A stretch of 64,000 nt of DNA from an uncultured Opitutia bacterium (GTDB lineage Bacteria > Verrucomicrobiota > Verrucomicrobiia > Opitutales > UBA953): NCBI GenBank assembly GCA_903855995.1, contig CAIOAN010000010.1:1-64000 (forward strand), read 5' to 3'. Both the position numbers and the translations under genes were made by a program. The notes under the pieces are model-generated. The model saw only the letters and a list, made by a program, of their open reading frames with translations. It was not told the origin of the DNA and did no database searches. Below are positions 3,001-48,361 of the stretch, in pieces (position 1 is the first letter of the stretch; each line of letters opens with the position of its first letter).

Positions 3001-6000
3001 GGCCGTTGTCGCGAACATCGAGCAGACCGTTGATCGTGGCAGTCAGCGGAGAGCTGGACTGGCCAATGTTGCTGGCGAAGCCGCCGACCGAGAGCGTCAC
3101 GGTGCCGGCGGACGCGATCGTCAGATTCGTCGGGGACAGAAGGCCGTCCGTCGTCTCGATGCGCAGCGTGCCCGCATTGACCGCCACATTGCCGGTGAAG
3201 CCAGCCGGAGAGTAGAGCAGCATCTCGCCGTTACCGGACTTCGTGAAACCCGTGCGCTGGCCAGCCATGGTATCGACGAGCGTACCCGTGACCCAGAGGT
3301 GCTTGCCCGCGGCGACATTGAAGTCGCGCGGAGCACCGTTGGTGCTGACGTTGAGGGCCGAAATATTGGAGTCCTGCGGGACGGAGACATCGCCGAGGAG
3401 CACCCAGGAAGGAAGCGCGGGAGCACCTGCATCGCTCTTCAGATCGCCGCCGTTGAGGGTCACGCCGGCAAGGTAGCCCGTGTAAGTCGTGGCGTCGGCA
3501 ATGCCGCCGTTGAGCGTCAGCGCCACACCATGGCTGACCAGACCGACGGCATCGCTGCCGGTGACCTGGAAGAGCGCACCGTTCTCAACCTGGATCGAGG
3601 TGGCCGCCGTGAACGAATGGTAGCCCTGGGCGGCCATCGTGCCCTGGTTCACGAAGGCACGGCCGGTGAAGGCCGAACCATCCTGACCCATGACGAGGAG
3701 ACTGGAACTCTGCTGGACGATGTCGCCAGCGCCTTCGATGCGGACGTAGTTATCGTATTCCTGCAGCACGTTGAATTTCAGCGTCGCACCGGAGGCGATG
3801 ACGACGCGATCCGCGCCACCCAGATTACCGAAGGTGCCCGCGAAGGTGCCGTCGCCGACCTGCAGCGTACCCGCATCGACGTAGAAGCGACCCGAGAAGC
3901 CGCCGTTATCGCGGACGAGGGAGGTCGTGCTCGTGCCTGCCTGGCGGAAGTAACCGGAGTCGGCGAGGCCATTGGTGAAGCGGAGGTCCGCGGTGCGATT
4001 GATCCGGAGCGTGGCGCCCAGGGAGATGTCGACCATGCTGGTGCCCAGCGAACCATTAGACGTCAGCTCGAGGATACCCGCCATGATGGAAGTCTGGCCG
4101 GCTTCATAGCTCTGCGCGGTGAGGGTCAGTTTGCCGCTGCCGACCTTCGTGAGGCCAAGGCTGCCGTAACCGACGCCCGTGTTGTCGCCGAAGGAGCCGC
4201 TAAAGGTGAAGTCCGTACCATTACCGACCGTCAAGACGGACGGGATGCCTGCCGAGGAATTCGTGAAGAAGCCACCGCCGCCGATGACATCGCTCGCCTG
4301 GTTGTTGCCGTTAAGGTCGAAGCCAGCGCCGGCATTGACCGTCAGAAGACTGGAAGAAGGCACCGCGTTATTCACGCCCGAGCGTAGCATGCCGGAGGCG
4401 ACAGTGACGCCCGCACCGCCGAGGGAAGCGTTGGTGGTCGCGCCGGTGAGGACGAGGATGCCGTTGCCGGCCTTCGTCAGACCCGTAGCGCTGGCGCCGG
4501 CGGTGGAAGTCAGCACGCCGTTGAGCGTGGCGGTGACCGCCGGGCTCGCGACGGTGATCGTGCGGGCCGCGGAACCGAGATTGATCGGTGCGGAGAGCGT
4601 GAGGTTGGCGCCGGAGAGGCGGCCACCGAACGTGAAGTTACCGGCCACCGTGACCGCATTGTTCAACGTGCGGGCCGTGCCGTCGGTGGTGAGCGCGGTG
4701 CCATCGCCGATGACGAGGGTGCCGAGGCCGAGCGGGCCGCTCGTGATGGCGGTGCCGTTGAGATTCGTGTTGGCCGCGATCATCAACGTACCGCCGTTGA
4801 GCATGAACGGCGCCGTGAAGGTGCTCATGCCGCTAAGGGCAAGGATGCCGCCGCCGGACTTCGTCAGCGAAGCCATCGAATTCTGCGTGATCGGGGCCGA
4901 AATCAGGAGGCCTGCCTCGGTGAGACCGGCGTTGACCGTGATGACCGGGTTGGCGTGCAGGAACTGGACCGAGCCCGCATTGAAGGTCTGGGCCGTGCCC
5001 GCCGCATAGGCCGCGGCGCTGAGCTGCAGCACCGTGGTGCTGACGACGGTGGTAATGGTCGTGCCAGCCGGGATGCCTGGTCCGCTGATGGCCATGCCGA
5101 TGGCCATGCCAGTCGTGCTCGCGACCGTGATCTGGTTGCTGGCGAGGGTCGTTACGCCGCCCGTCAGGACGGACGCGGAAATCAGCGGCGTCGTGACGTA
5201 GCTATTGTTGGTAGCCGTGATCGCATTCTGGGCCGAGAACTGGAGCGCGGAGGCCGCCGTGACGATCGGGTTAGACATCGCGCCATCGTTCTGGAACGTC
5301 AGCGAGTTAAGCACGTTGTTGCCGAACATGTTCAGCGTCGCGCCACCGTTGATGGTCACGTTCGAGGAAGCGGCGATCTGCTGGGCGTAGCCGGCCATCG
5401 TGACGACGACGTTGGTGCCCGAGGCGATACCGCCGATGACGAGGTCATGCGGGATGAGCGTCCAGTTGCCGGAAGACGAGAGGGTCGTCGTGCCGCCGAG
5501 GAGGTAGGTCGTGCCCGTGTAATCGTTATGGGCGGCGGCCGTGGCGTTACCGAAGCCGAAAGCCCCGTTACCGCTGCGGATGACATTCATCGTGCCGGTC
5601 AGCTTCGTGTTGAAGTTGACGGTGCCCTGATTGATATAGAGGAACAGGTCGCCCCCGCCAGCGGTGGTGATCGAGCTCGTGCTGTCCGCGCCCTGGAAGG
5701 TATTCGTCTGATTGCTGTTGCTGATCAGGCCGACCCCAAGGGTGATCGGCGAACCCGTGGCAATATTGAAGACCACCGCGTTGGTGCCGTTGGCGACGCG
5801 CCAAGTGTAGGCGGCATGCGCGCCGGTGATGGTGCGAGGGGTCGTGGTGGTACTGTCGGAATAATTACCCGTGGCGAGCGTGGCCGCCGTGATGTCCGTG
5901 CCCGTGAAGCTCGGCGTCGTGACGCCGTTATACGAGGCCTGCATCTGCGCCAGGCCGTAGGTGTCGGTGTAGGTCGCGAAGGTCGAGCCATCGGCGATCG

Positions 6001-9000
6001 CCCAGCCCCCGATAATATTGTTCGTCATCTGCGAGGCGCGGAACGCCACCCCGTTGATGTTGGTCAGGAAAACCTTGGACTGGGCGGTGAGGCCGGCGCT
6101 GCCGAGCGTATTGATGCCCGCGGAGTAATTGTTATAATCCCAGCCGTTGAAGTTCACCATGCTGCTCGAGGCAGGGGTGCGCACGAAATTATTAATCGTG
6201 ATGATGTTCGTGCTGCCTTCGTTGATATAAGGCGCCGTGTTGAGCTGGTTGCTGCCGAAGGCGGAGGTGACCGTACCGAGGTTCACAATCGTGTCCACGG
6301 AGCCGGAACCGTTGATGGTCAGCGTACCGGCATTCAGATTGACCGGCGCCGTTGCGCCGATGCGCACGGGGCTGTCGATCGGGTTCAGGCCGTAGTTATC
6401 CCAGTTCAAGACACCCTGGTAGAGCGAGATCGAGGACGAATTGGCGATGGAGCCGGCATCGCGCAGCTGGAGCGTGCCGCCGCGGACCGCCGTCGGGCCG
6501 GTGAACGTATTGACCGAGGTGAGGGTCGTGGTGGTGTTACCCGAACGAGCAAAACCCATCGCACCGGCGATCACCCCGCCGAAGGTACTGTTATCCGTGG
6601 TGGTCAGCACCGCGCCGGACAGGCCGGTGACCGTGCCGCCCTGTCCAGGGAGGATATTCGAACTCGCGAGGCCGCGGACGACCTGGCTATTGGCGCCGAG
6701 GTTGACGACCGCCGTCGGGCTGTTGATTGAAAGGAACGTCAGCGTGGCGTTGGAGGTCGTTCCCACGACCGTCAGGGTATTATCCATGCCGGACGCGAGA
6801 TTGAGCGTGCCGCCGTTGACCGAGACCAGCGTGCTGGCTGCGATGACGCCATTCGGCACACCGAAGGAGTAGACCGGAGCGTTCAAGGTCATCACGCCGC
6901 CGTCGGACTTCACGAAGCCCGTGGCGCTGTTGAGGCCGAGGAAGCCGGTGATGTTGAGCGTGGCCCCGGAGAGGACGTGGAAGGTGGGCGCCGCGACCGC
7001 GGTGCCGACGACATTGCCCACGGTGAGGTTCGCGGTGCCATCGGTGACGAGCACTGAAGAGGCACCGGCCAGCGAGAGCGTGAGACGATCCCCGGCGACC
7101 CCGAAGCCGCCGTAGATGGCTGGCGAGAAGGCGCCGCCAAGCGAACTGTTCGTGCCGCTGAACGTGAGCGTGTTGACCGTCGTGGAGACGAGCAGCGACT
7201 GTGCGCCGGTGACTCCGGCATTCTGAATACCAGTCCAGGTGGCGGGAGTGGTATTCAGCTCATTGGCGGCCAAAGCGCGCCAGTTGTTGCTCGTGGTATC
7301 CTTGACGAGGAAGCCCGTGCCGTTGCCGGCGACGCTGGCATCAGCCAGGATATCGCCGCGGACGGACATACTCGTGGTGCCGTTGAGGCCGGCGCCCTGC
7401 CCCGCGGACAGCGAGGCGTTCGTGATACTGAGATTGGCGCCCGCGCCGAGGCCGGCGATGACGAGGGAGCCCGAGTTCGCGTAGAAATTAAGCGCGACGC
7501 TCGAGGCGGATGCCGTCGGATTAGCACTCAGGGTGAACGTGGTCGCACCGGTGATGGCGGTGATGGTCGCCAGCGAAGGGATGCCCGCCCCGCTGACATA
7601 CATGCCGACCGTGAGACCGGCCGTGCTCGGCACGGTGACCGCGGCGTTACCGTTGATCGTCGTGCCGGACGGCGTGGCGGTGCCAACGTAGTTGAGGGTC
7701 GAGATCGCGAGATTCAGCGCGCGACCGGCGCCGGGCGTGAGCTCGATGCGGCCCCCGCCGTTGATCGCGTTCACATTGAGGAACGATTCGGTCGTGTCGG
7801 CCGTGGAAGAACCCAGGACCGAGAAGACGCCGCCCTGGACGTTCAAGGTGCCGCCGAGCGCGCCGCCGAGACGGTTGTTGATATTCGCCGCGGTGTTATC
7901 CGCGACGAGCGTGCCGCCCGCATAGGCGTTGAACGTGGTGTTCGCGGCGGCGGAGGAGACGAAGGCCTGGCCGCTGGCGCCGGCATAGGCGAGACGACCG
8001 CCGCTGACGCTGATCGCGCCATAGGATGCCGTGGCAGGCTGGGCGGCATCGAGCGTGAGCGTGCCCGTGCCGATCTTGTTGATCAGCGCGTAGGCGCTGT
8101 CGTTGAAGCGCATGAACCGACCAGAGAAGGTCGTGTCGAGGTTGTTAAAGCCGACGTTGAGGGTCGGCGTACCGATGACGCTGTTGAAGATGTCGCCGCT
8201 ACCGGACAAGCCACCCCACGAGGTGGAGAGGTTATTGAGGTCGAAACGTCCGGCGGCGCCCAGGTTCAGCGTCGCATAGCGCGAACCGGCGTTGAGCACG
8301 CCGTTCTTGATGCCACCCGCGGCCACCGTGAAGCTGCCCGTGAAGGCGTTCTGTGCGTTGAGCTGGAGGACGCCGTTGCCGGTCTTCGTGATGCCGCCGG
8401 AAGAACCGACGATGGCCTGAATGGAAAGTTCGGCCCGGAGCGGCTCGATGTCCGCCACGCCGTTGGTGGTCAGGCCTGCGACGTTGATCGTGTTCGGCGA
8501 AGCACCGAAGTCGAAGCGTCCTTCGAGGACGGTGAGAGTCGTCGTATTGGAAGCCGTGGCGGTGAGGCCGTGGCCGCCGATCTTGAGGATACCCAGATTG
8601 CCCCCGGCGCTGAAGGTCAGGTTGCTGGCCGTCGTCGCGGCGGGCTGACTGATGAGCAGCGTGACACCGTCCACGATACTGGCAATCGTCGCACCCACGG
8701 GGATACCCGAGCCGACGATGGCCATGCCGGTCATGAGGCCGGTGGTGCTGGCGACGGTGACGCTGTTGCTGCCGGAGCTGACGACGCCGGAGGTCAGATT
8801 CACCGGAGACACCGACGACCAGGAACGGACGAGCGGAGCCGTGGTGCCGCCGTTGTTATTGATGACGACACCCTCCTGGGTGCTGTTGCCGAAGTAGAAA
8901 ATCTGCGAGCCGCCGTTGAGCGTCACGATATTACCCGGGTTGACCTGGTTCGGGGCGTAGGTCGTGAAACCGCTGGTATTATTGATGATCAGCCCCTTGG

Positions 9001-12000
9001 TGATGTCATTGGCCAGCGGGATGGTCGTCCAGCTATTCACCGTGAGGCTTCCCTGATTGAGGACAGTGCCGCCGGTGTAGGTGTTGGTGCCGGCGAGCGT
9101 GGCCGGGCCCGTGCCGCTCTTGATGACGGCGATGTCACCCTTGATGACGGCGTTGATCGTCTCGCCGGTGCTACCCTGTGAGTAGAGGAATAGTTCACTC
9201 GTGCCGGAGGTCAGGAAGCCTTGATTGATGACCGTGCCGATCGTCCAGGCGTTGTTATTGAAGCTGAGGATGCCGCCAGATCCGATGGTCAGCGTGTTAC
9301 CTGCGCCGATGCTGATATTGATGCCTGCGACCACCGTGGTGTTCAGCGAGTTGACCGTGACGTCCTGGGTGATCGTCGAAGTACCCGCGACGAGCTTGAT
9401 GTTCTCGGTCGGCAGGCTCGAATTTGAGATGGAAGTGTTCGCGGAGTAAGCGGCGAAGCCAGTCTGGCCGAGGTAACCGAGACCGAGGGTCGGGGAATAG
9501 GAAGCCCAATCCGAGGGATTGCCCGAAGAGTCAAAGACGGCCCAACCGCCGATGATATCATTCGTGAGGACGTTCGCGACGTTCGCGGTCGAGACGCCGT
9601 TGATCTGACCGATGGTGATCTTGGGCTGCACGCCCACGCTACCGGTCCACTTGTATTCGCGGAAGACCGCCGTGCCCTGCCCCGCCGTGCGGACGAGATT
9701 ACCGATCATGAGGTCCGCCCCGCTGGCCTCGTAGACCGGGACCGTGACGGCAGCCGTGACCGTACCCGAAGCCGTGGCGGCACCCGTCAAGTTGAAGGTC
9801 GTCGGGCCGGTGATGGAGGCGATCCACGTGTTCGTATTCAGACCCGTGCCGGCGATCAACTGGCCGGCCACGAGGCCGGTCGTGGAAGCGACGGTCACGC
9901 CGAGGCTGCCGCTGACGGTGGTGATACTCAGCGGTGCGGTGCCCGCGACGTTGATGAAGTAGCTGCTCCCTTGAGCAAGGTTGAGTGTGCCAATCGTCTC
10001 GGACGAGGGGATGCCCGCGCGGCCGGTATAGGTGAACGTCGCACCGCGGAGGCTGACCGGGGCCGCGTCGTTGATGCGATTCAACACGTTGTGCGTGCCG
10101 ACGTTGTTATCGAGGGTCAACGAGGCGTAGTTCAGGTCCAGATTGGAGGTGCCCGTGAAGGCACCGTCATCCTGCAGGATCGTCGTGCCGGCGTTCAGCA
10201 GCGTGCCGCCGACGTAGGTGTTGTTGCCATAGACCGTGAAGGTGCCGCTATTGGTCTTCGTGAAGTTGACGTTGCCGATGATCGTACCGGAGAAGTTGCG
10301 CGCATCGGTATTGATCACGAGGTTGCCCATACTCGTGAGCGAGCTGCTGGTGATGACCGAGCCCACGCCGGCGATCAGATTGTCGTTCCAGAAACCGTAG
10401 GTCATCTGGGTGCCGCCGTTAAGGTCGAGCGTGCCGCCGACGGCCGCGAAGTAATTGTTCGGGGCGATGCCGTTCTTCAGCCCGCTGGAGAACTTGACCG
10501 TACCGGCGTTGAGCGAGAACTGGCCCGTGAGGCTGTTGGTGCTGACGTTCGTGAGGCCGACGATCGCGCTGGTGGGCGGCGAAAGGAAGAGCGTGCCGTT
10601 GCCCGCCTTGACCATCGAGAAGTTGCTGGTGGACTGGCCGTTGCCGCCCGCGAGGGAGGTGGCGAGCGTGAGGTCGCCGAAGGTCCAGATATTGAAGTTC
10701 GGCAGGTCGTTCGTCTGATAGAGCGTGCCGCCCGTGATGGTGGAACTGGTGCCGGGGCGGACCAGGATGCCACCGCTGTTCAGGCTCAGACGGGCGCCGT
10801 CGGCGAGATTCAGGTTGGAGCTCAGGTCGAAGGTCAGCGAGTTACGCTTGGCGTTCGCGGAGACGGTCGCCGTCGAGCCGTTGTTGAGCAGGATGTTGCT
10901 ATCCAGCACCGAGCCGTTGATGAAGCCCGCGATATTGGTCGGGTTGATTTCGTATTCAGGGGCGACCGGGTCCTCGCTCAGCGGGCGCAGGTAAGAGTTG
11001 ATACCACCGGTGCTCGTGGAGGCGAAGGCGACGCCCGAACCGAGGGTGACGGTGACACCCGTGGCAGTAGCCTGGAGCGGTGCGCTCAAGGTGATGATGC
11101 CAGCGTAGTCGACGGAGGTGATCTTGGTGCCGGGGGCGATGCCCGCACCAGAGACGGAAACACCCGGGACCATGCCCGCGACCGCGGCGACGCCCAGCGT
11201 CAGGTAAGTGCGGCCAGAGACCGTGTCGCCGGTGGCCGTCGTGACGGCGGGACCCGTGGCGGAAAGATCGACGACCGCCCACGGCAGGATGGCACGATTG
11301 AACGTGCCGTTGGCGCCAGCTTCCCCGCTGAAAGTCGGGGCGGCGGCGAGCTGCACGCTCGCACGGGTGTTACCCGGAGCCAGGCCGATGCCGCGGAGCA
11401 GCAACGAGGCACCCGTGGCGGTACCCGTCTGTGCCGGGGCACCGCTACCCCACGCCGCCCCACGGAAGGCGAGGATGGCCTGCTGGAAGAACGCACTCTG
11501 GTCGATGACCGTGATGGTCGAAGCGCCGCGACCGAAGCTGGCGCCGTTGAAATTATCCAGCGTGGCGTGAGCGTCGGTGTTGATGTTGCCGAGCAGCGTG
11601 AAATTGCCGCCGCGGAAGGTGACATTATAAGAAGTACCAGCGAGCCCGAGACGACCGGTGTCGTTGTTGGTGGTCGAGTTATCGACGATGACGGAAGCAC
11701 CGGTATCGATGTAAATCGCCGAGCGCCAGGCGGCGTTCGAATTGAAGACCAGCGAGCCCTGCTTGACCACCAGGCCGCCGCCGGCGGGATCCACGATGGA
11801 ACCCGTGTTCGACGAGGTCATCGTGAAGGTACCGGTACCGTACTTGTTGATGGTGCCGAAGAGGATGCCGGAGCCGACCGTGAGGGCCGGGGAACCGAGG
11901 ACGAAGTCGCCGTTGCCCACGAACGAGAGCGTGGAGAGATTCGTCAGGTTATTATAGATACCCCCGCGGATATTGAGCACGCTGCCGGCGTCGGCGCCGA

Positions 12001-15000
12001 TGACGGCGTTGTAAGGCATCGTGATCAGGCCGGTGATCGTGTTATTGCCGGAGACATTCTCCAGCTGGCCGCCGAAGTTGATGCCGCCAAGGGATTGCGA
12101 AGCAAGGCCCTGGAGGTTGACCGGGTTGGCGAAGCTGTTGCCGCCGGCGAGCTGGAGCGCCGCACCGGTCCACCAGGCATTGGGCGAGACCAGAATCGTG
12201 CCCGTGCCTGCCGCGGTGGCATTGGCCAGACGCACGGCACCGCCGTTGATTTGGATGCCGCCGGTCCAGCCGGTGTTGTTGCCGGCCAGGACGAGCGTGC
12301 CGAGTTCGTTCTTATAAAGAACGTTGGTGGCCGCCGAGAGGCTGAACGGCGAGGTGAGGGTCAGCGAGGAACCCTGCGGCACGGTGATGGAATCCGCGGC
12401 GACGTTGAGGTTGACCGTACGGGCGCTGCTGATTGTGCCGACGGCGCGCAGGCCGACGGCGCTGGTGCCGTTGATCGAGATCGTGACCGTGTTGGCCGGA
12501 TCGCCGAGCGAGGCGTCGGAGCCGATGGTCAGCATACCCGCCTGGATATCGACCGTGTTGCCGGCGCCACCGAAAGTGCTGGTGCCGTTGAGGACGAGCG
12601 TTCCCGTGCCCGTCTTGATCAGACCGACGTTCAAGTCGCCGTCATCGAGCGCGCCGCCGACGGTGAGGGTATTGGCCGAGACGGCGAGCGTCGGGATATC
12701 GCGGAGCGTGACCGCACCCGCACCGAGGTCGAGGGACTGCGTGCCGGTGAAGGTGAAGCCCTGGAACCACTGCATCGGGTTCGCAGCGGTCAGCGCCAGC
12801 GCCGCACCGGAGGTGTTGTTCAGCGTGACGCCGCTGGAGATTTTGAAAGTACCGGCACCGAGGGCAGTGGCACTCGCCAGATTCAAGGTGCCGGCGGCCA
12901 GACTGAGACCACCGACGCCCGTATTGGCACCACTGAGGGTCAGTGAACCCGCGCCCGCCTTGGTGACGGGGCCGGCGAAGTTGACGGCACCGGAAAGGGT
13001 CAGCGAAGAAGCGCCGACCCCCGTGACGGTCCACGTCTGGGCGCCCGTGGCCACGACCGGTGCAGAAATATTGACCGCGCCGCCGTTGTCCTGGACCAGG
13101 ATACCGTTCGTGGAACTACCCGGAGCGATGGTCAGCGTGCCGCCCGTGCCAGGGCGAATATTGAAGGCGAAAACCCCCGCCGGCACCGCCGTGAAGGTCA
13201 GGCTGTCCGCGGACTGGTTGCCATCGAGCGTCAGGTTGAAGGCTGAGCCGGTGACGTTATTCGCACTGAAGAAAATCGAGTCCGTAGCCTGCGGCAGGGC
13301 GCCGAGGTCCGTGGTCCCCGAGATATCGGTGGCCCAGTTGGTGGCACCGCCCACATTGGCCGACCACGAGGCGCTCGTGGTGCCCTTATAGTAGCGGTTC
13401 TGGATCAGACTCGAAGTGATCGTCAGGGTGTTGCCGTTCGTGGAAATCGCGTAGTTCAGACCGGCCGGAGCACTGCCGAGAATCCAAGTGGTGGCGTCGA
13501 GGCCGCCGGCGGCGGACGTCATTAGCGTGTAAGTACCCACCGCCGGGGCGCCGCCGAGGCTGTTCAGGTTGAGCGAAGTCAGCAGCCCTAGGGTCGGGCG
13601 CGCCGAGAGAGCAATCGAGTCATTGACACCGCTGCTGGCGATATTGAGGTCGAAACCGAGGCTGGCTTCGTTGCCGAGCGACAAGGCGACCGAGCTAAGC
13701 GCGACTGCGCTGCTATCGAAGAGATTCAAGGTCGCACCCGCGGCGACATTGATGGCGGACACGCCCGCGGAAGTGAAACCGGCGTTGAGGCGACCGAGCG
13801 AAACCGTAACCGCACCGCCGTTGAGGTTGGCGGTATTGGTGACCGCCAGGGCACCCTGCCCCGTCTTGGTCAGGTTAGCGGCGACGGCGGAGTTGAGATT
13901 CGGAACGGTGAGCACACCGGTCTTCGAGACGAGTTCGACCGTGGCGCCGGCGGCGCCGGGGGCGAGTCCCTGATTAGCACCGAGGCTGACGCTACCCGTG
14001 CCGGTGTAACTCAGCGTACCGCCGCTGACGTTGACGATATCGGTCGCACTGTTGTTGCCGAGATTACCGGCGGTCGCGAAGGAAAGCTTGCCCGCGTTGA
14101 CACTGATTGGGCCGCTAAACGTATTGGTGCCGGAGAGCGTGACCGTACCAGCCGTGGATTTCACCAAGCCGAAGGAGCCCGCCAGGACGCCGGAGATCGT
14201 GCCACTGCGGGCATCGACGTCGGTGAGGGAAGAGAAGGAGCCTGCGCCGCTGCTCGTGATGGTGCCCGAGGAGAGCACCAAGGCGCCGACGGTTTCGGCA
14301 AAGGTGACGGCGTTGAGCGTACCGCCGGCTACTGTGACGGTCGAAGTATCGTCAAAGGCGGTCGCGCTACCCAAGGCCAGGGTGCCCGCGTTGACGGTCG
14401 TGCCGGCCTTGTAAGTGTTGAGGCCCGAGAGCGTCAGCGTACCCGTGCCGTTCTTGATCAGTGAGCCCGTATCGCTGCTGATGGCGCCCGAGATCGCAGT
14501 ATTGGCCGCGCCGGTTACCGTCAGGACATTGCCGGCAAGATTGACCGCTGTGCTATTGGACAGCGTGAGCGTACCGGCGTCGGACTGGACGCTGGCGCTG
14601 GCCGTCAAGGTGATCGGTCCGGCAAAGGTGTTCGTGCCGCTGAGATTGCGGAGCGCACCCGAGGAAGCCGAGCCCGCGCCCGCAAGCGAGAGAGCCTCGG
14701 AAGCCACCGTGATGCCGCCCTGCATTTCCAAGGAGGCACCGGAGTTGACCACCGTGCCGGCGACATTCGTGCCGAGCGCATTGGCATGGCCGACGCTGAG
14801 AATGCCTGAATTGACCGATGTCAGTCCATCGAACGCGTTATTACCCGAAAGCGTGAGCTTGCCATTGCCCGCCTGCGTGAGGGTCGCGGAAGAACCCGTG
14901 ATCGTGCCGGAGACGACGGTGTTACCCGCGCCGGTGAAGGTCAGGGCATTGGTCGCCGCGACGATGGCGGAAGCGTTGTTCAGCGTGAGCGTACCGGCGT

Positions 15001-18000
15001 CGGACTGGATCGTCGTGGCTCCGCCGAGGGTGGCCGTACCACCGAAAGTATTGGTACCGCTGAGATTACGAAGCGCACCATTTGAGGCGGAGCCCGGGCC
15101 GGTGACCGTGAGGGCCTCGGCGCCGACGGAGATCCCGCCCTGAAGTTCGAGCGAAGCGCCGGAGGCCACGGACGTACCGCTGCCCGTCGTGCCGAGCGCG
15201 GTCGCATGACCGATGCTCAGGATGCCCGCGTTGACGTTGGTGACGCCCGTGTAAGTGTTGGCACCGAGCAACGTGATCGTGCCGGCGGCGCTGTTGGTCA
15301 GCGTGCCGGAGCCGGCGATGATACTCGAGGTCGCATAGCTACCCGTGCGATTGAAGACGAGCGCAGCGTTATTGGTGATCGTGCTGGCCGTGGCGCCGAG
15401 CGTACCGGTCGAGGAACCGGCGCCAACCTGCAGCGTGCCGGCGGCGATGGTCAGCGAGCTGGTGAAACTGTTGGTGCCGTCGAGGATTAGCGTATCGCTG
15501 CCGGAACCCGACTTCGTGAGCGTGCCGGAGACAAGGAGGCCGGTGACATTCTTGAGCGTGCCGCTCTGGAGCGTAAGGGTATCCAGCGGGTAGACCGTGC
15601 CGATGGCGTGTCCGGTCATGTCGACCGTGCCGCCGTTAAGGACGAAGTTGGCGGTCGTGAAGACCGTGGAGCCCTTGATGACATTACCCGCCATGGTCAC
15701 CGTGCCGCCGGTGATCGTGACCGTATTGTTCGTCGTGGCCGCGGCGGTCGTGGTGTTCTTACCCAACTGGATGGAGAACGAGCCCGTGTTGCCGATGGTG
15801 ACCGTGCCGCCGGAGATGTTCAGATTGCCGACATAGGCCGTGAAGACGCCGGCGAAGGAGTCCGTGACCGTACCGATGGCGAGAGCCCCGGCCCCGATGG
15901 TCGTCGTGCCGCCGCCGATGTTCCAAGCATAGGTCATCGTCGGCGACGTGACGTAAGCGGAATTACTGCGGGAATCGGCGAAGAGCACCGTCGTCGCATC
16001 GAGGGTGCCTTGGTTGAAGTTGAAGATGACCGGCGTCGCAGCGCCACGGGAGGAGGCACCGAGCGAGAAGGTGCTGAGCAGGAGGTCGGCGTTGTGTCCG
16101 TTCAGATCCAGCGTCTGCGGGCCACCGGCGCCCGTACTGGCGGTGCCATAGGCGAAATTGAAAGCCGCTCGGCTCACGCCGTCATACGCACGCACCTTGA
16201 GTGCGCCATTGGTGGCGGCCGGATTGAAGGTCACCGAAGCCACGTCGCGGCCGCCGGTGCCGATGTTCACCGTGTTGACATTGAGCGTGGTCAGGCCCGA
16301 GCCGAGCAGGACGACGTTGTTTGGCTGCGCCGTACCTGTGTAACCCTGTTGGTTGCCGACGTTGAAGGAAGCACCGCGGATGAAAGTGACCAGCGTCGTC
16401 GGGGTGACGCCCGTCGGGATCGGGAAATACATCGTCGCGAAATTCGTGGCGATGTTCGTCCCCGTCGGGTTCGCGACATTGAAGGCCCCCGAGGCGCCGA
16501 GGTTGGCGCTGATCGAGCCGAGGCCGGTGATGTCAAAGAGCGCGGTGTTGCCATAAGTCGCGCTGGTCGAGCCACCGACCTGGAAGATCGCCCCGGCGCT
16601 ATTGACGACCAAGGCGCCGCCGCCGTTCATGACCAGGCCCGTGAGGCCGGTGGACAACAATGGATTGAAACCGACGGTGAAGTTACCGTTGACCGTCAGC
16701 GTCTTGCCCGTGCCGACGGTGATTGTGCTGGAAAGAGCGTTACTCGCACGGGCCTGGAAGGAACCGAACGTGGCGCTGCCGTTGGTCAGATCCAAAGAGG
16801 CGAGCATCGGCGACCCGATCGAAGGCGCGAGATACAGCGTGCCCGTGGTATTGAACTGACCGTCCGCGGAGGTCGCCACGGTGCCGGTGTTGCCAAGAAT
16901 CACCGAGCCACTTCCCGTCACCGAGGTGCCGACGGGCAGCGTATAAGTATTGGAACGATTAAAGACGAGTGAGCCGGAGTCGGCGATGGCGCCTGATCCG
17001 AGCGTTCCAGTGGTCCCGCCCGCACCAATCTGCAGGGTGGCCGTGGAGGCGATGACGGAATTGCCGGAGTAAGTGTTCGTGCCGGTGAGCGTGAGGGTGC
17101 CGGTACCGTTGACAGTCAGGCCGGTCTTGCGCGTGCCCAGACCGAGGACGTCCTGGATTGTGCCCGCGAAAGTCGTGTTGGCACCCGCGTAGACGAAGGA
17201 ACCGTCCGCGCTCGTGCTGCTATTACCGATGAGCTGGCTCGCCGCGGTGGCGCCAGCGCCGACCGTGAGCGAGGTGACCGTCTGCGTGAAACCGTTGAGG
17301 TCGAGAATCCCGACCGAGCCGGCGCCGCCGAGCGTGAGGGCGCCCAGGGAGAAGGCGTTATTGGCGCCGAGCTGAGCGGTGCCGCTCGTGATGACGGTGC
17401 CGCCGGTGTAGCTGTTTGCCGTGGCGAATTGGAGCGTGCCGCCGCCGGTGAAGGCGATGCCGATCTTGCGGGTGGAGTCAGGCTCCGCGAACACACCCCC
17501 GAAGGTGACGACGCCGGAACCTGCGAAGGTAAGCGTCGAGGTGCCGATCGCCGAATTGGTGACGGTCTGGTTAGCCGCCGTGCCGAGCGTGCTCAGGCTG
17601 GTGAGCGACTTGCTGGTGCCGTTGAGGTCGAGTGTGGCGCTGTTGCCGACACTGCCGAGCACGAGGATCGTGGAATTAGTCCAGGCGGCCACGCTGCTAA
17701 TGGTGAGCGTACCCGACTTGACGGAGGTCATTCCTCCGTAGGCGTTGGAGCCCGCCAGCGTGAGGTTGCCTGATCCCGTCATGGAGCTCACCAAATCGCC
17801 GGCGCCGTTGACCGCCGTAGTCAGGGTGTAGCTGCCGGAGCGATTGATGACCAGGGTGCCGTCGTTGCCGACGGCCAGCGCGCCGCCGAGCGTGCCGGAG
17901 GCGCCGCCGTTGCCGACCTGGAGCGTCGCACCGCTCGCAACCGTGGAGCTGCCGAGGAAACCGTTGGCGCCCGTCAGGATGAGCGTGCCGGCGAGGACCG

Positions 18001-24000: not shown

Positions 24001-27000
24001 TGTTCGCGTAGATGGCATAGTTGCCGTAGAGCTTGGCGCTGACAGTACCGATTCCGGTCTGCGAACGGATCGCGGAGTCGCCCATCAAGGTCAGGTTGCC
24101 CGCGAGCGTCGCACCGTTGTCGATGCGGAGCACGCCGTGCGCGACAGTGGCACCGGTACTTTCGGCCCAGCCGCCGCCGATGACATACCAGTTGCGGGTC
24201 AGCGTGATGGCTTGTGCGAACAGGAACTGGCCGCCGTTGTTACCGTAAATATAAACATTGCCGTTCGCTCCCGTGCCAAACGGCTGGGTGACCGCGGTGC
24301 TGGCCAGGTAGACGCGCTCGCCGCTGATATAGGTGTTACCCGTATAGGTGTTATTGGCCCCCAGGAGCACGCTGCTCTTACCCGCGCCGATCGCGAGGCT
24401 GCCACGGTAGGTGACGTCGGTGATACCGCTCGCGCTCTCACCGAGCACCGCGTTGATCGTGAGCGTGTTGCCCGTGTTGAAGATGACGAGTTCCTTGCCG
24501 GCGCCGGGCACGATCGTCCCCTGCCCTGCCGTCGTGCTGAGCGAGGAGGAGGCAGCGGCGCTACCGATGAGGATACCGCCCGTCGAAATGGTGAGCGTAT
24601 TCCCAGCGGTGATGACCAAGTTCGCCGCAGTGGCGGCAACATTGCGGAAACTGGCGATCGTCTGGTTGGTCCAGGCGGTGGTGTTCGTGACCTGGAAGTC
24701 GACGTTCGTACCCGCCAAGGTGGAGGGAACCGTCGCGGCGCTCGAGGCCGTGTAGGCCGCGGTGGTACCGGTCTGGCCGACGCCGACGATGAAATTACCG
24801 GTGGTGCTCTTGGCGGCCCAATCCGTGACCACGGCGCCGGAAGTCGTGCCGGTGATCGCATAAGCGGTACCGTTGGCGTCGGTCAGGATGGTGTTCGCCG
24901 TGCCCGAGGTCGTGATGGCCCCGTTGGTGGCGCTGAGCGTGCCCAGAGGCTGCGAGACGACCAGCGTACCGCCCGCCGTGCGCGTGATCGCGCCCATAGT
25001 CAGCACCATCGCATAGGAGGCGGCACTGTTGTTGAGATTGATGCCTGAACCGCCGGTGCCGATCGTGGTGCTCACCACCGTCTGGGAGTTCCCCGCGGCC
25101 GCGCCGGTCATGGTCAACGCACCGCTGCCGAACGAGCTCGCGATGACCTGGGCACCGGAAAGCAGGGCGTTGGACTGGGGCGCCGAGGCGCCGCCGAAGA
25201 TGAGGGTCGTCGTGGCCGGCAGAATATTCGTCCAGGTCGGCGACGCGGTGCCGAAGGTCAGCGCCAAGATGCTGACGTTGGTGACCGACGTGGCGGACGG
25301 CCCGGGCGAACCCGCGGCGATCGTCGTCGAACCGGTGTAGGTCTGATTAGCGCTAAGCGTGAAAGTATCCGTGCCGAGCTTAACCAGGCTGCCTGCCCCG
25401 CTCATGATTCCGGTATAGGCTGAGCTCACGCCGCCGTTACCCACACGCAGGCTGATCGGATTAGGCGTAGAAGCGTTGTCGGCCAGCGTCAGGTTGGTCG
25501 CGATGTTCAGGCCACCGACATTAAAGATATGAGAGGAGACCGACTGGTCAAAGACCAGCGTGCCGACGAGGGACGTGATCGAACTACGCGACAGCGCGTC
25601 GCTGTTGGACAGGTTGAGGGTGCCGGCCGCGATGGAGGTCGCACCGGTGAAGGTATTGGCTGCACCCAGGGTGAGCGTGCCGAGACCAGCCTTGGTGAAG
25701 GTGCCGCTGATACCGTTACGCGAACCGCCCGCACCGGTGACATTGCCGATCGTGCCGGCGAGCAGGACGTTATTACCGTTGGTATCGAAGGTGAGCGTGC
25801 CGGAAGGCATCGAAATGCCACCGGGGATCGCCCCTGCGCCACTGGTGATATCCGTCGTGGCACCGGTCGCCCAGCGGATCGTGCCGCCGTTGGCGACAAG
25901 GCCGCCCGCGCTGGCACCAAAATTGGCGCTGATCGTACCGGGGAGCACCGTGAGGCCGCCGGTCGAGGTGAGTTGCAGGCCGCCGGTGAACGTATTCGTG
26001 CCGGTGAGGGTCACGTAGTTGCCGACGATGCTGACATTGCTGGTGACGCCGCCCCCGATACTGGTCGCATACGTCAGCGTGCTGCCGCCACCGCCGAGGC
26101 GATAGGCGCCTGCGATGTAAGGCGTGAGCGTACCGGTGTAGGTCAGGTCGGCCGCGCTGGCGCCGAGTGCCATGCTCGGCAGGAACATCGGTCCCGCGTT
26201 GCTGAAGTCGAGATTGGCCGCGGAGGTCGCCGGGGTGAGGGAAATCGTGCCGAGGCTGTTGCCGTTGACAAAGCGCTGGACGCGGGCGAGGGCCGCGAGC
26301 GAATCGATGGACAGCGCGCCGCCGTTGGCGACATACATCTGGCGGCCGATGTTCACGTTGGCGAACGTGCTCGCGAAGAGCGTACCGCCGGAACTGATGG
26401 TGATGTTACCGTTACCGAAGCCGAGGTTCGTGAGACCCGTGAGGACGTTCGCACCGTTGAAGGTCAGCGTACCCAGGCCGAGTTTGGTGAGGGCGCCGGT
26501 CGTATCGTTGAGCGTCGTGAGCGGCGAGGGAATCGTGACGCTCGCGCCGTAACCACCGCCACCTAGGAGCGTGACCGTGGGGATCGTGCCCGAGGCATAG
26601 GTCCCAGGCGAGGTGATGACGATACCCGTGACGGCACCGCCGCTGATGAGCGCGTAACCCGCCGCCGGCGTTCCGCCTGCGAGCATGCCGGTGCTGCTGA
26701 AGACGACGGCGGGGGCCCCGATATAACCGGCACCGCCGGCGACAGTCAGATTGCCCTGCGTGACCCCGTAGCCAGAAGCCGGCGCGAGGTTCGTCAACGT
26801 CACCAAGAAATTGTTCGAATCGACCTTGATACCGCCGCTGAAGGAAGGAGCGGTGGCGACGGCCGAGTTATCAATGGCCCCGAAGACCGTGGTGGCCACG
26901 GTCTGGTACCCGGTGATCGTGACTGGAAGCACGCCCGGCAAGGCGGCGGTGGCCTTGATAGTGCCGCCCGCGAAATTAAAGAACGTCTGCTGGCCCGTAC

Positions 27001-30000
27001 TCGCCCCGTTATTCTGGGTGATGGTCACGCCCGTCAGGTAGGTCCCGGCGTCGAAGTTGATCATCCCGATATTGTTCGTGCCGCCAGCACCGTTACCGAA
27101 AGTGATCTTCTGGGTGGTCGTGATCAAAGTACCACCGGCCAGATTCAGGACGCCATACTGATTGGCGTTGTTCATGTAGATGCCGAAGGGCGAGCTGGCG
27201 CCGGAACGATCGAGCGTGCCGCCCGGCCCGAGGGTCATCGTGCTCGTCTGGCCGCTGCCGCCGTACGCAAGCATCATCCATTCGCCGTTGAAAGTGACCA
27301 CCGGGTTGGCGCTGCCGCCGATATAAGTGACCGCGGTGCCGCCGTTATAGTCGAGATTGACGCGGCCGGGCGCGAGCAACGTGCCACCGGTGACATTGAA
27401 ATATCCGTAGCCGCCGGCGACCGAGTTGATACGGAAGCACAACGCGTCCGTGGCAGTCAACTGATTGAACGTCGCGGAACCGGAAGTCTGATTGTAGACG
27501 GCGACCGCCCCGGCGACCGACGCACCGTAAAGGTTATAATAGTTGGCGATGGTGCCGCTGACATTGACGATGGCGTAACCGGTCGTGCTGCCGATGTTGA
27601 GCAAGCTGCTGGCGGACGAACCGTTGACCGTGCCCGTGATGTTCAGGGTGCCGGCATTGACGGTGATATTACCCGAAAGCGGATTGTAGCCCGACAGCGT
27701 CTGCGCGCCGTAGCCGGTCTTGACGAGCGAGAGGCTGAGTGCCCCGCCGTCGCGCAGCGAGCCGGCGAACGTGCTGTCCGTGTTGTCGGTACCAATGTAG
27801 AGCGACGAGGCGGCCGCACCGTTGTTCTCCACATAACTGTTAGCGCCGCTGCTGGCGAGCGAGCCGACGTAGACCGTGTAACCGTTGGTGCGCAGGATGC
27901 CTCCATTGGTCGGGATGACCCGCGAATTCGGACTGAACGCATTGACCGCCCCGGCGGCCAGCACGGCGCCGTCAATCGTCGTCGTGCCGTAATAACCGGC
28001 ACCAAACCAAGAGTTCGTGGGCGGGAAATAATAATTGGTCTGGAGCGCGTTCGCGAGGGTGCCCGCGATGGTCACGATGCCGCCCGCCGAGCTGCTGATC
28101 GTCACGCCGTTAGTGGCGGAACCGCTAATATTACCTGCGAGGGTGAGCGTGGAGCCGTTGGCACCGGTGCCGGCGATCGACCAGGTCTGCGGGGCTCCCA
28201 GCACGACCGGGGCCGTGATGGAGATATTACCTGCGTTGCTCTGCACGGCGATCCCATCGGTGGAAACCGCCGGGGCGATTGTCAGCGTGTTGATGTCCGG
28301 ACCGCCGCCGCCGATGGAGACGGAGGTCACGCCGGTGGGCGTCGAAGTGAACACCAGGCCGCCGACGGTGAACGGCACGTCGAGCGTCGAAGCGTAGGCG
28401 GTCGCGGCGGAATTGGAGGCGCTGAAGATGACGCGGTTAGCGACACCGGGGAAGCCCTGGGCGTTGACCGTGCCAGCGGCGTCGGTGGTGAAGTTGGTAT
28501 TGAAGGTCGTCTTATTGAAGGTCGACCAGCTGTTATCGCCGCTGATCTTCCAGTAAAGATCCGTGGCCCCACCGGCGAAAGCGGTGGTCGTGAGGGTCAC
28601 CGCCGTATCGGTCGCGGCGAAGGCGAACGCCTGGCCGCCGAAGTTGGCGAGCTTACCCAGCGTGAAAGAGGCGCCGGAAAGGCCGCTCGGCGCCGTGATC
28701 AGATTATAGGTGCCCGCCTGCAGGCCGCCGAGACCGGTCAGGTTGATGAGCACGCGGTTGGCCGTGACGGCTGGGGCGGTGGTCGTGATACTGTCGTAGG
28801 AGGACAGGCCGCCGATGTCGAAGCCGAGGGTCGTGCCCGTGTAGCTGGTGCCCGCCACGACCGTGCCCAATTCGAGTACGCCGCCGCCAAGGTTGATCGC
28901 CTGACCCGCGGTGTTGAAAAGATTGAGCGCGGCCCCCGCGGCCACCTTGATGGCCGACGTGGCGAGCGGAGCGGCAACGCCGCCGGTAAGATTCAGGCGA
29001 CCTCCGAGGACCGTCGTGGAACCCGCGTAGGAAAGCGTCGTACCGGAGACCGTGAGGGTACCGATGCCGTCCTTCACGATATTAAGGTTATTCTCATTAG
29101 TCCCCGCACCGCCGAGGGAGCCAGTGTAAGTGGTGGTATTATCCTGCAGGACGGTGAGCGTCGAATAGGCGGCGTTGCCGCCGACGATGGCGTTCGTATT
29201 GACCGAACCCAAAGCGCGGAGCGTGATCGCGGCACGGGCCCCATAGGTGCCGGCGGGCGTCGCGACCGTGAGGAAGGGAGCGGAGCCAGGCAAGTAACTG
29301 CCGGGATCCGAGATCACGACATCGGTGATCTTCCCCGCGGCCGAGACGACGGCGTAACCTTGCGCCGCCGTGGCACCGAGCTGACTGCCGATTGCATCGA
29401 AGGTGAGGATCGGCAGATTGCCGGGCAGATAAAGGTAGCCGTTGTCGACGATCGTGAGGTCCGCACGCTGCACCCCGGTGAGCGAGGTGAGCGAACTGAC
29501 GGTCTGGTTAAGAGAGCCGCTGGAATTACCGAGCTGCACGATACCGGAAGTACTGCCTGAACCGAGATTCAAGGCGGCATTGACGGAGATACGGTTATCC
29601 GAGCCACCGCCGAGGATGAGGCGGCCATTGGCCGCGGTCGTCGCACCGGCATAGCCCGTGGTCGCGGCCAACGTCAGCGTGCCGGCACCGGCCTTCGTGA
29701 GGCCGCCAGGGCTGGCGCCGCTCGTGATCGCGGCAGGGCCGCTGGCCGTCGCAAAAAGGCTCATGCCGAACGACGTGGAGTCGGGCACATTATTGATGAT
29801 CGTGCCGACGGGTACGCCCGCGCCGCTGACCGTCATGCCGACGAGGAGTCCGGCCGTGCCGCTGGAGACGGTCACGACCTGACTGGCGTTCGTCAGCGTA
29901 GCCGTAGAGAAGTTCACGCCACCGATCGAATTACTCAGCGTGATATTGTTCGTACCCGTATCGAGGGTGCCGCCCGCCGGAGCGAACGTCATGACACGAT

Positions 30001-33000
30001 TGGAAAGATCGCCGGTGAAACCGTTGGCGAGCTGCAACGTGCCGCCCGCGAAGACGATGGCGCCCGTGTTGCCGCCGATATTGCTGGGCGAGGTGATGCT
30101 CAGCGTGCCTTCATTGAGGGTCGTCTGGAAACGACCTGAGCCGCCGCCGGCGGTGTTGGCGGCGGAAAGCACGAGCGTTCCGCGGCCGGCCTTGGTGAGA
30201 TTGGCGTTGGAAACAAGGGGGGAGCTGATGATCGCGGTCAGCTGCGGGCTCACGGCGGCCGAGCTCGGGTTCATCACGCTGATGACATACTCCGTCACGC
30301 CGCTGACCATGATGCCGCTCTCGAAACCGCCGAGCGTGATGGTGTTGACCGGGATGTTGCCAGGCGCCGAAGGCGTCGCCCACGGATTCATCGTGAACAT
30401 CATCGCCCCGCTGCCAATCTGCAGCGCAGCGCCCGCGCCGACGCCGCCGCCGAGTACGCTGAAGGCACCTGAAGTCAGCGTATTACTATGGAGGATGAGC
30501 GAATTGATCGCCGGACTGCCCGCGACGGAAAGGGTGCCGGACGGCAGGGCGCTCGAAAGCAGCTCGCGCACATTCGAACCTCCGCCGGAGGCGGCGAGCG
30601 TCGTATACTCGGTCGTGATGTCGAGGACCCGCAGCGAAATCGCATTCGCATCATAGGTAACAAAAGAGTTACCCATGTTGTATTCGGTCGCCTCAATCGT
30701 GCCGTTCCAGCTTTCGCCGGTGAGCCAGGGGACGATGCTGACGGTCGTGCTGCCCGAGGCACCGGCGGCGCCCGTATTCCAAGGGGTCGACTGGGGCGTG
30801 GTGATCGCCCACTTATAGTAGCCCGCGCCGACGAAATTGCCGATCGGCGAGCCGACGAGCGTCTGGGCCGTGGCGGTGGCAGTCGCGGCGTTGCTCAGGG
30901 TCAGCGTGTTCGGGCCGGTGATCGCGGTGACAATCGTGTTCCCGGCCAGCGCGTTGCCCGAGTAGCTGCCGATCGCGGCGGTGCTGAGCGTGAACGTCGT
31001 GCCGTTGGCGTTGACGTTCGTGACCGTGGTGCCGGTGGCGATACCCATGCCGGAGACCATCATGCCCACCTGGAGGCCGGTGGTGCTCGTGACGGTGACC
31101 ACGTTGGAACCGTAGGTCGTGACCGCCGCGGCGAGCGCGGCGACCGGAAGATTGGCATTCGTGACAATGGAGCCGACGGTGATCAGGCTCGTGTCAGCCA
31201 CGCCGGTGACCGCGGTCGACCCGGAGGTCAGCGCTGCGGTGGTCAGGGAACTCGTCGTCGTGCGATAACCAAGACGGCCGCCGCGCAGATTACCGGTCGA
31301 GTAATTCTGGCGCACCAGGTTCGCAAAGGTCGTCGCAAACGCGGTATTAGTAGTGGCATACTCGGTGATGTAGTTCGTACCGGTCGTGAGCACGAGGGTA
31401 CCGAAGGCCTTGGTCTGGGCGCTGCCGATCGCGGAACGTAGCAGCAAGCCGAGCGGGCGGGTCTCCGGATACACCGAGCCGGCGACCGCATAGACAGACG
31501 GCGGCACGCTACCGGCGGCGGAGTTGAGCTGGATAACTTGAGCGGCCGGCAGCAGCGCGACGTTATTCGCGCTATAGTCAAGATACAGAGCCCCGTAACG
31601 ATTGATGAAGACAATCGGATTCACACCCCCAGCGAGTGAAGTATATAGAAGGCCGGTGTTATTAACCAACTGCACCGAGCCGCGGTCGACAATCAGGTTA
31701 CCGAAACTCGCGTTGGTGTTATTAATGACCAGGTTCGCGTTGCCCTGCATCATCAGGTTACCGTTACCCCGGATTTCACCGTTCCAGTTCGTGCCGACGG
31801 TCTCGGTCAGGACCAGCGTGGTGCCGGTGCCGAGGTTAATGTAATTGAAGTTGGCGTAGGTCTGACGATTACCCCCGGCAATCGAGCCAATGACTTCCGA
31901 GTAGGGCGTCCCCGCAGACAACGCGATGCCGGCACCGGCGCCATAGGCGAGCGTATCGATGGTAAAGTGGATGCCGTCGGGATCCACCGTGGCCACGTGC
32001 GACCCCATCGGGATGTTCGCGCCCGTGATGACCATGCCTGGGACGAGGCCAGCCGTGCCGCCTGTCGCGAAGGTCAGCGCCGCCCCCGTGGCGGTCGCAG
32101 GCTGGCTAATCATCAACGTCGTGCCGTTCTGGATACCGATGATCGTGGAGCCGGCCGGGATACCCACACCGGTGATACCCATGCCAGCGGAAAGGCCAGC
32201 GGTACTGGAGACGGTCACCAACTTGGAACCAGCGTTGGTCGCACCGCTCGCCAAGGTGGACTGCCCCGACAGCGTGATAAGATTAGAAGCCAGCGTGAAA
32301 ACCGCGCCGGAGAGCGCGGGGCCATCGGCCACGACGCTGAAATTACTGCTGTCCTGATTGGTGAAGACCAACTGCGCGTTGTCCCCGATGCCGAAGCCGC
32401 CGCGCCCAGTGCGCGCCACTTCCAGGGTACCGGCCTGGATCTGGACGAGCCCCGAGAAGTCGTTGGAATTCGCACCGCCGATGAGGCGCAAGGTGCCCTC
32501 CCCGGTCTTGGTGATGGCCTGGGAGCCTCCAATATAAGAGGAGACAATCAGATTCTGGCTACCGACGGCGGCCGAACCCAGCGGAGGCTGATCCACCGAA
32601 AAGATGAGTTCGCGCGTCGACGAACCCAGCGAGCCACCCGAGATGACGGAGCTGTTGAGGGAGCCCACGGTCGGGCTGGCTACGCCAGTGGTCTGCAGCA
32701 CGCCGCCCGAGACGAGGCGAAGCAGGATACCGTCCGAAATATTCAGCGTGGAATTACCTTGGGCGTTGAAACGCAGGGAGATGGGTGAAACCGGCGTCGA
32801 GATGATGCCGGTGAAGCCGGTCTGGTCCGAGATATTCTCAGCGTTGTTCCAAGTGGTGACGTCGTCCTTAAGGAGCGTGTTGACCGCGACGATATTGGCG
32901 CCGGTAAGGAAGTTGCCGGTGGCGGTGGCGAAGCTGGTGACCCCGGAACCGTCGGTGACCGTCGTAGCGGCACCCAGCACGCCCACGAGTCCAGAATACA

Positions 33001-36000
33001 CATCGTTCAGGGTCGTCGTCGTGATGCCGTTGACGGAACTCTGGGTGCCGCTCGGGAGCGTCAGGCGAATCGTGCCCGCGAGGCGGGAGACGATCGGTCC
33101 GAGATTCAGGACAATCGGCTGGCTGTTCGTGGCGGTGACGCTGATCGCCGAGTAGGCGCCCGTGTTACCCGTACCGAGCGCCGGCAAGGTGAGGCCACCG
33201 ACGTTCTGCGCGACCGCGGCGGAACTGTTGCCGATGAGCGACAGACTGCCGCCACGGAAATCGAGCAGCGCGGCGGGGTTGAGGCGGTTGGTCGGGGTGA
33301 GATAATTGAGAATCACCAGACCCGCGTCGAAGCGATTGGTCGCGGTGCTCACGCTACCGGACGTCTGATTCTCGCCGCGGAACTCGATCGTGCCGCCGCC
33401 GGTCTTCAGGAAACCGCTGCCTGCGCCGGCCAGAATGGCGTCGATGACAATTTCGGCCTCATTCGGCAGTAGGAGGTTGCTCTTATAGACCGTGAACGTG
33501 CGCTGGGCCGCGGCGCCGAGGCTCAAGACGCCGAGACCGGCGGTGCCGGTAATCGTGGCCTGCTGGGTGCCGCCCGTCGAATTACCTCTAGCTTCTACGA
33601 CAAAATTTCCGTTCAAGGTCAACGTGCCGGCGCCCAGGAGAACCGTCGCCTGAGACGCCGCGGTAGACGCAGTATTATACATCTGCAGCGAACCGACGGT
33701 CTGGTTCGTGCCGTTGATGTCGAAGATCGAAGGGAACGCCGTGTTATTGACGTAGAGCGCGGAACTGGTGCTCAGCTGCTGACCGGCGCCGGTGGCGATT
33801 TTGATCGAGCCACCGTCGAGATAGGTCTGCCCCGTAAAGGTACTCGTCACCGGCATATTGAGCGTCAACACACCTGGCCCGATATGGGTGAAAACATTAC
33901 CGTTGGTACCGGTCTGAATCAGACGACCCGAAAAAACGGTGTTGGTCGTGTAATCGCCGCCCGTTCGGAAGGTTGCCGCGGTGGTGGAGGTATTGATGAT
34001 GATCGGCACCCCGACGGCCGAGACCGTGCCAATCGCGGAGTGGGTGCCGAGGGCGGCCGTGCTCAAGACGAAGGTGGTGCCATTGGTGATGCTAGCGATG
34101 GTGGCATTCGTCGGGATGTCCGCGTGGCCGCTCACGATCATACCCGGCAGGAGGCCCGCGGTGCTCGTGACCGTGACCGTCGTCGTCGAGTTGGTCACCA
34201 GATTGGCCAGCGCCACCGGCGTGCCGTAGAGAGCGGAAATCGAGCCGGCCGTGCCGTTAACCCCCGCCAGATCAAACGTCGTCTGGCCCTTCATGACCAT
34301 GGGGTTATTCTGATAACCCAAGACACCGGAGTTCGTGCCGGCGGCGATGCCATTCACGAGCTGCGAACCTTCATTGAGGATGATCGGTCCGGTGAAAGTA
34401 TTGGCCGCGGTAAGTTTGAGGATACCAGGTCCGTTCACGGTCAGACCGCCGGCTCCGCTAATGACCCCCGCGATCGTCAGGGTGACCCCAGAAGTGGCGA
34501 CGTTGAAGTTAGCGTTGCCGCCCAGAAGGTTGAAAGTGTGGCTGTCGGCCGTGGAACCGGCCGCCAAGGTACCCGTGGCGCCCGTATAATTGAGCGTGGT
34601 GCCATCGCGCATGTTTACGACGGCCGCGATACCCAGGCCGAGTGTGCCCGCACCAGAGATGCCGGTGTTGCTAAAATTCAAGGTGCCGCCGTCGATGGTC
34701 ACGGTCCCCGTGAACAGATTGGTGCCCGACAAAGTCAGGGCCCCGGGGCCAGCCTTCACGAGATTCGTCAGGTTGGTGACGCTGTTGTTGATGATGCCCG
34801 CCGAGACCGTGACCAAGCCCGACGAATACTGCTGCAGGATCAGGTCATAGGCACCGGATGCATTGCCGGATGGCATGATCGTACTGGTGGTCACGCCACC
34901 GAGGGAGTAGGCCGTGGTGCCGGTGAAAAGAATGCCGTCGTTCACCGCGAGCGTGTTGGCGCCCATGGTCAACGCATCAGTCCCGGCGGAACCGATGATT
35001 TTGATCGTACCGGCCGTCAACGCACCCGTGAGCGTGGCGGCACCCGTCTGGATATAGTTGACCGTGCTGACGCCACCGGTGGTCGGCAGCGCGAGGTAAC
35101 TGCTGGCTGTCAGGGTAACCCCCGAGCCGACGGCGGCGGCCGAGCTGAGCGTGAAGGTCGTGCCGTTCGTGATACCGGAGATAATCGTGCCTGCGGTCGG
35201 GATGGAAGTCCCGGTGATGTTCATGCCAGGCAGAAGGCCTGCCGTGCCGCCCGCGGCGAAAGTCAGCGCGGAACCCGTGGAGCTGGCCGGCTGGCTGATT
35301 GTGACCGTGGTGGTGCCGACACTGGTGATCACCGTGCCACCGGGAATGCCGGGCCCGCTGATGCCCATGTTTACCGAGAGACCAGCGACGCTACCCACCG
35401 TGATGGTGTTGCTCCCGACGGTCGTCGCCCCACCGGTGATTGTGGTCTGCGCCGCCAGGGTGATGGTAGTCGTAGCGGTGGTGGTCGTCGCAGGCAGCGA
35501 GACCTGCCCGACGGTCGGCGTCGAGGTGAGTCCCGCCAGCAAGGCGTTACCCAAAATATTGCCCGTGGTCAGCCAATTGAAATTTGTGCCGTCGGTAAAC
35601 ACTGCACGGCCGCCGCCCATGATGCCGTTGGACAGACCGGTGGTCGAATAAATCGCGGTGTTGACCGGAGCCGAAACCAGCAAGGCCGCCCCCGAGGTGG
35701 TCATGGTGATGGCGCCCAAGTTCAGGGTCGTGCCCGAAGTGTCTCCTGCGGTGAGACCGATCGTGCCGCCGCCGAGACCGATCGTGACGGCACCCAGCGT
35801 CTGCGACGCCGCGAGTCCGGCTTTTCCGATGAGATTGAAATTGCCGCCCGAAAGATTGAGCGCGCCGCCCGCCACCGCGCCGGGCGACATCAGCGACTTC
35901 GAAGTCGCGGCGATGCCGCTGACATACGTACCCGCTGCACCCGGATTGGCGCTCGCCACGAAGTGGGTGGCATCGGTCACGCTCACCACATACTGGTTCG

Positions 36001-48221: not shown

Positions 48222-48361
48222 GACGGGGTGATGCCACGATTGGGCCAGAAGGTGACTTAAGGAAGCCGAAATCCTGATACGCAAACGCCGTTCCTTAGGT
48301 CTTTTAACCCGCTTTCAGGTTGGCAACCTTTGGAGCGGACGTATGTCCTATTGGCTTCCCC
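48222..48361. promoter_or_regulatory. Divergent intergenic region with a perfect palindrome
   Basis: 140 bases between the divergent dehydrogenase and PmoA-like genes. It contains AGGTTG-G-CAACCT (48317-48329), a perfect 13-base palindrome, and a 7-base inverted repeat TAAGGAA (48258-48264) with TTCCTTA (48291-48297). A shared regulator is possible. No confident -35/-10 pair was seen. Confidence 0.4.

Follow-up and report, generated by a model that had tools for sequence, protein, structure and literature searches.

Giant surface proteins of bacteria resemble endless repeats, which makes them difficult to study. The locus described here raises the question of what a short unit is that recurs within such a repeat array without belonging to it, and which function it could provide. 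The window, that is, the whole stretch of 64,000 nucleotides that was analysed, stems from an uncultured Opitutia bacterium (source genome G000) and carries one giant gene with a sorting motif at its end:

77..37198, minus strand: host gene, a single ORF of 12,373 aa, open throughout, with PATR array, signal sequence and PEP-CTERM
101..175, minus strand: PEP-CTERM sorting motif (PF07589, E 7.7e-5)

By Pfam, the 12,373-aa protein contains about 42 PATR (PF12951) stretches, and its N-terminus is a signal-like sequence. The host genome encodes one exosortase, located outside the window (PF09721, 105 bits); with PF07589 at its C-terminus and an exosortase in the genome, the giant protein qualifies, judged from sequence, as a likely PEP-CTERM/exosortase substrate. 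An autotransporter reading was rejected: Pfam finds no C-terminal β-barrel domain, and the C-terminus is PEP-CTERM. Giant surface proteins of the PATR/PEP-CTERM type are the hosts of the module copies discussed here, whereas the module itself is not PATR.

The original prediction had described the unit as about 50 residues long and present in 15 copies at 12 sites between positions 5020 and 36090, both singly and as doublets. HMM searches recovered 14 complete copies at these 12 sites, and the fifteenth is a split module whose halves flank one complete, nested copy; together, they span positions 4976-36091. The count, the range and the presence of two doublets therefore agree with the prediction, whereas the length has to be revised to about 62-66 residues. 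Only inside the doublets are module centres 48-49 residues apart. An HMM built exclusively from 71 viral-contig sequences recovers all 14 complete copies (28.8-72.5 bits) as well as the C-terminal half-copy, in this search at residues 2080-2115 (12.8 bits), compared to a maximum of 7.2 bits in 50 shuffles of the protein and -3.6 bits for the reversed protein. The scores given below (30.0-75.3 bits for complete copies) come from an HMM run separate from the viral-only profile; the shuffle maximum across both is 7.2-7.5 bits, which also serves as the control for the 10.9-bit half. G004 and G015 are genomes carrying orthologues of the giant gene.

35918..36091, minus strand: module copy 1 (residues 370-427; 47.5 bits; orthologous in G004 and G015)
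35252..35437, minus strand: module copy 2, first member of a doublet (residues 588-649; 53.6 bits)
35105..35254, minus strand: module copy 3, second member of the doublet (residues 649-698; 30.0 bits)
34031..34198, minus strand: module copy 4 (residues 1001-1056; 53.5 bits)
32063..32248, minus strand: module copy 5, first member of a doublet (residues 1651-1712; 63.2 bits)
31913..32065, minus strand: module copy 6, second member of the doublet (residues 1712-1762; 38.6 bits)
31145..31243, minus strand: split module, N-terminal half (residues 1986-2018; 10.9 bits alone)
30944..31129, minus strand: module copy 7, nested in the split module (residues 2024-2085; 54.6 bits)
30854..30943, minus strand: split module, C-terminal half (residues 2086-2115; 28.0 bits alone)
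29723..29905, minus strand: module copy 8 (residues 2432-2492; 46.0 bits; absent in G015)
23066..23251, minus strand: module copy 9, the best match and the copy modelled (residues 4650-4711; 75.3 bits; absent in G015)
11042..11233, minus strand: module copy 10 (residues 8656-8719; 44.7 bits; absent in G015)
9749..9925, minus strand: module copy 11 (residues 9092-9150; 46.0 bits; absent in G015)
8606..8794, minus strand: module copy 12 (residues 9469-9531; 55.9 bits; absent in G015)
7484..7669, minus strand: module copy 13 (residues 9844-9905; 67.8 bits)
4976..5164, minus strand: module copy 14 (residues 10679-10741; 57.7 bits; absent in G004 and G015)

Doublet partners overlap by about one strand, and from this overlap copy 3 appears to have its first strand in common with copy 2. 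Over all module sequences collected, tandem spacing is either 44-51 or 57-83 residues, apart from a single pair at 33. This distribution suggests two forms, a compact one in which neighbours have a strand in common and a full one. The two halves of the split module correspond to model positions 1-33 and 34-62 and, when joined, score 39.5 bits over positions 1-62; copy 7 fills the gap between them exactly, at the GIP/GT loop, and the same nested arrangement (window 30854-31243) is kept in the G004 orthologue. Copy 8 lies 8 residues ahead of a PATR unit. With respect to placement, the module-free spans from 11.3 to 23 kb and from 23.3 to 29.7 kb are as predicted, but the proposed clustering of copies towards both ends of the gene is weak and not significant: the largest gap has P = 0.12, and the scarcity of copies across the middle half has P = 0.07. 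Another giant of the same genus (G004:C70) has module copies in its middle.

Which family does the module belong to? Neither Pfam nor NCBIfam has a family for it, and the copies gave only scattered single chance matches to these collections, none of them in two or more copies, consistent with the expectation that there is no settled family. PHROGs returned only weak matches, to virion structural families, and we found no description of the module in the literature. When one copy was compared with cultured phages by tblastn, nothing matched at 1e-3; short low-complexity queries fail in such searches, and phage relatives did emerge from profile and fold comparisons. A structure model of a single copy (AlphaFold, copy 9, from an 88-row alignment) predicts a compact six-stranded β-domain with a mean pLDDT of 90.9. 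When modelled inside its PATR context, the module reached a pLDDT of 81-98 with sharp confidence borders to low-confidence PATR flanks; PATR segments were left out of the alignment for the second model, as they misaligned onto the module. The conserved columns are glycine turns and the hydrophobic core; part of their apparent conservation is due to the seed pattern, which favoured sequences with the GM..GxGI core. In every column, charged residues are confined to 23% of the sequences or fewer, which makes an enzymatic role seem unlikely.

Among solved structures, the module comes nearest to the capsid decoration protein of Arthrobacter phage Bridgette (8eci, residues 7-83): the two agree in fold along the full module (Z 10.7, rmsd 2.1 Å, TM 0.77, 73 of 76 residues, 26% identity) and have the string GIPAGTTI in common. 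While the phage protein is a free-standing capsid protein, the module occurs in 15 copies within a bacterial giant. The fold likeness is clear and kinship by sequence is probable, the profile match being weak (E 0.017-0.042). Foldseek additionally reported 16 predicted viral proteins at E<1e-3, with up to 45% identity and rmsd down to 1.0; predicted phage proteins nearest in fold (rmsd 1.0) are 42-45% identical. Second among the solved structures, the tail tube insertion domain of phage Mystique (9n71) is a small β-domain of similar topology (Z 8.6), for which homology is at most perhaps the case. For the LKA1 tailspike, the lambda tail tip and the P22 coat I-domain (Z 7.7, 7.1, and 6.5, respectively), a similar topology at Z under 8 may reflect a common arrangement only, not kinship.

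Ig-like domains of tailed phages are promiscuous small β-domains attached to heads, tails, and proteins of the cell surface. The module would work alike as a promiscuous add-on domain, but differs in having six strands and belonging to another sequence family. No Ig entry is present among the best 50 structural matches, an absence from a list that does not amount to exclusion, and Pfam Ig models match none of the copies. Hoc is an example of an Ig-like domain protein of tailed phages (PMC10385173).

Comparison of orthologous giants shows how the module changes. G004, the nearest named relative of the source organism (uncultured Opitutae MAG CAIWNE010000033, scored as same genus), carries a full-length orthologue with 71% identity (G004:C33), and a second orthologue in G015 is 42.5% identical (G015:C37). 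The source gene and G004 have 11 of the 12 module sites in common, whereas the G015 orthologue is without 7 of the 12. Copy 14 (residue 10679) faces a clean empty site of 66 residues in both. Between G000 and G015, 12 indels reach 40 aa or more, and nine of them correspond to a complete or almost complete module; these nine consist of at least 86% module sequence and each covers 77-100% of a module. Although modules make up only 5-7% of giant-protein length, this one recognisable domain explains most mid-sized length changes between the orthologues, and the clean presence or absence of whole modules bears out the notion of a portable coding cassette. Two non-module indels lie near the C-terminus: residues 11300-11539 (240 aa), absent in G015, and residues 11697-11997 (301 aa), absent in G004 and G015.

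The module is present in several phyla and in phages, where homologues are abundant, in line with the phage-like strings initially noted. On viral contigs, it resides in an HK97 capsid protein, a tail sheath, head-closure, and tail collar proteins and T4-type virion proteins, and one viral-contig module protein matches a family named amidase. The viral-only profile, which recognises the window copies, places them in one module family with virion proteins of tailed phages. Bacterial hosts include a protein with a pilin-type (N_methyl) N-terminus and a T9SS-sorted Flavobacterium protein, and 42 of 236 genomes of the same class contain the module at 1e-5, many of them in giants, with ORFs of up to 20,385 aa. 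In a Trichlorobacter flagellin (L106:9551-10636), the module sits between the conserved, Pfam-checked N and C flagellin domains; ORFs of similar size on L107 and L108 carry a module at the same position. A viral tail protein of 2,032 aa (L046:920-7015) consists in part of 16 tandem modules, ~69 residues apart, many with a cysteine pair flanking the first strand.

We consider it most probable (about 0.72) that the module is a portable surface-display domain hung on a long secreted shaft, where it would supply many weak, changeable contacts. The clean empty sites, the module-biased indels (9 of 12) and the nesting of one module in another argue for portability. The module would fold by itself into a six-stranded β-domain of ~65 residues, and exposed loops of extracellular proteins could accept it with the host fold undisturbed. 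About 15 modules would project as side domains from the very long, secreted PATR (β-helix) shaft, a geometry that we infer, the PATR flanks having been modelled at low confidence, and the shaft would be sorted by PEP-CTERM/exosortase. Because the domain is also found on phage heads, phage tails, and bacterial appendages, its most likely job would be to offer, on the outside of the particle or cell, surfaces for changeable contacts with glycans, envelopes or adjacent shafts; by this analogy, the module may be adhesive. The computed comparisons show that gain and loss proceed by whole domains and that purifying selection then maintains the copies.

A different outlook, which we regard as possible but clearly less likely, is that the module is a neutral spacer: a domain tolerated in exposed loops that comes and goes by drift and does no binding. 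The high turnover between orthologues fits such a spacer, as does the restriction of conservation to core and turn residues. The dN/dS ratio is 0.31 for modules and 0.24 for the rest of the giant gene; the copies thus change slightly faster than their flanks, as a spacer might, yet they remain under purifying selection and are kept folded. Drift is also difficult to reconcile with 11 of 12 sites being common to orthologues at 71% identity, and with a domain that has been recruited repeatedly to surface proteins, and not to proteins in general.

Somewhat more doubtful is a role as structural brace or cement, in which modules would pack against adjacent shafts or coat proteins and thereby strengthen the assembly, similar to capsid decoration proteins. 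The nearest solved relative is such a decoration protein, the domain is found inside capsid and sheath proteins, and on contig L047 the gene immediately following a capsid-like gene encodes a module protein of 236 aa (gene names read from sequence). However, the absence of 7 of the 12 sites in the distant orthologue shows that the modules are dispensable there.

It is improbable that the module is selfish mobile DNA that inserts in frame, comparable to the Rickettsia palindromic elements, even though whole units are inserted in frame and leave clean empty sites as counterparts. Such an element would be at odds with the divergence of the copies: nearest non-orthologous copies are mostly about 50-65% identical at the amino acid level, with no recent DNA duplicates, and the phage copy on L047 is as near to the window copies as intragenic paralogues are. 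For the lineage-specific copy at residue 10679, no recent source was found (nearest 37/61 identical), and inspection of five junctions by eye revealed neither an insertion signature nor an obvious target-site duplication. Furthermore, the unit is a protein domain that occurs in several phyla and phages and is under purifying selection here. The tree of 99 copies is poorly resolved (3 of 96 branches starred), and we therefore make no claim regarding a single origin, dating, or the direction of transfer between phages and bacteria; a mode of DNA movement is something that we infer.

Finally, a variant of the PATR repeat is very improbable: both are small G/T/S-rich β units of one protein, but none of the 14 copies matches PF12951 at E<=1, a compact, closed domain rather than a PATR strand variant is predicted, as anticipated from the sequence, and phage proteins without PATR carry the module as single domains or in tandem arrays.

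Through a family that is listed in neither Pfam nor NCBIfam, the module links the giants with phage capsids, phage tails, flagellins, and pilins. We would give even odds to the broader proposal that an uncatalogued 65-residue family circulates between tailed-phage virions and bacterial giant shafts, flagella, and pili as a protein-level cassette, which would be the principal unit by which giant genes change their structure and able to insert into itself. With a family model, many "unknown virion structural proteins" would gain an annotation, and it would become directly testable why phages and bacteria have surface-display domains in common.

Additional module proteins were observed along the way. 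The open frames of 20,385 aa (G267:C2) and 17,232 aa (G133:C2), each with several modules, are among the largest bacterial frames encountered here. A protein conserved in the genus (L016, G000:C6:80923-81078, as well as L027, L028, L030, and L037) carries one to three diverged module copies in ORFs of 521-714 aa with a hydrophobic segment near the N-terminus, and L029:1123-2346 encodes what by eye resembles a FecR-type secreted protein with one module toward its C-terminal side. Near the giant gene, the window contains two large DUF7133/HEAT proteins (44775-48284 and 55233-58604), one of them with cytochrome c.
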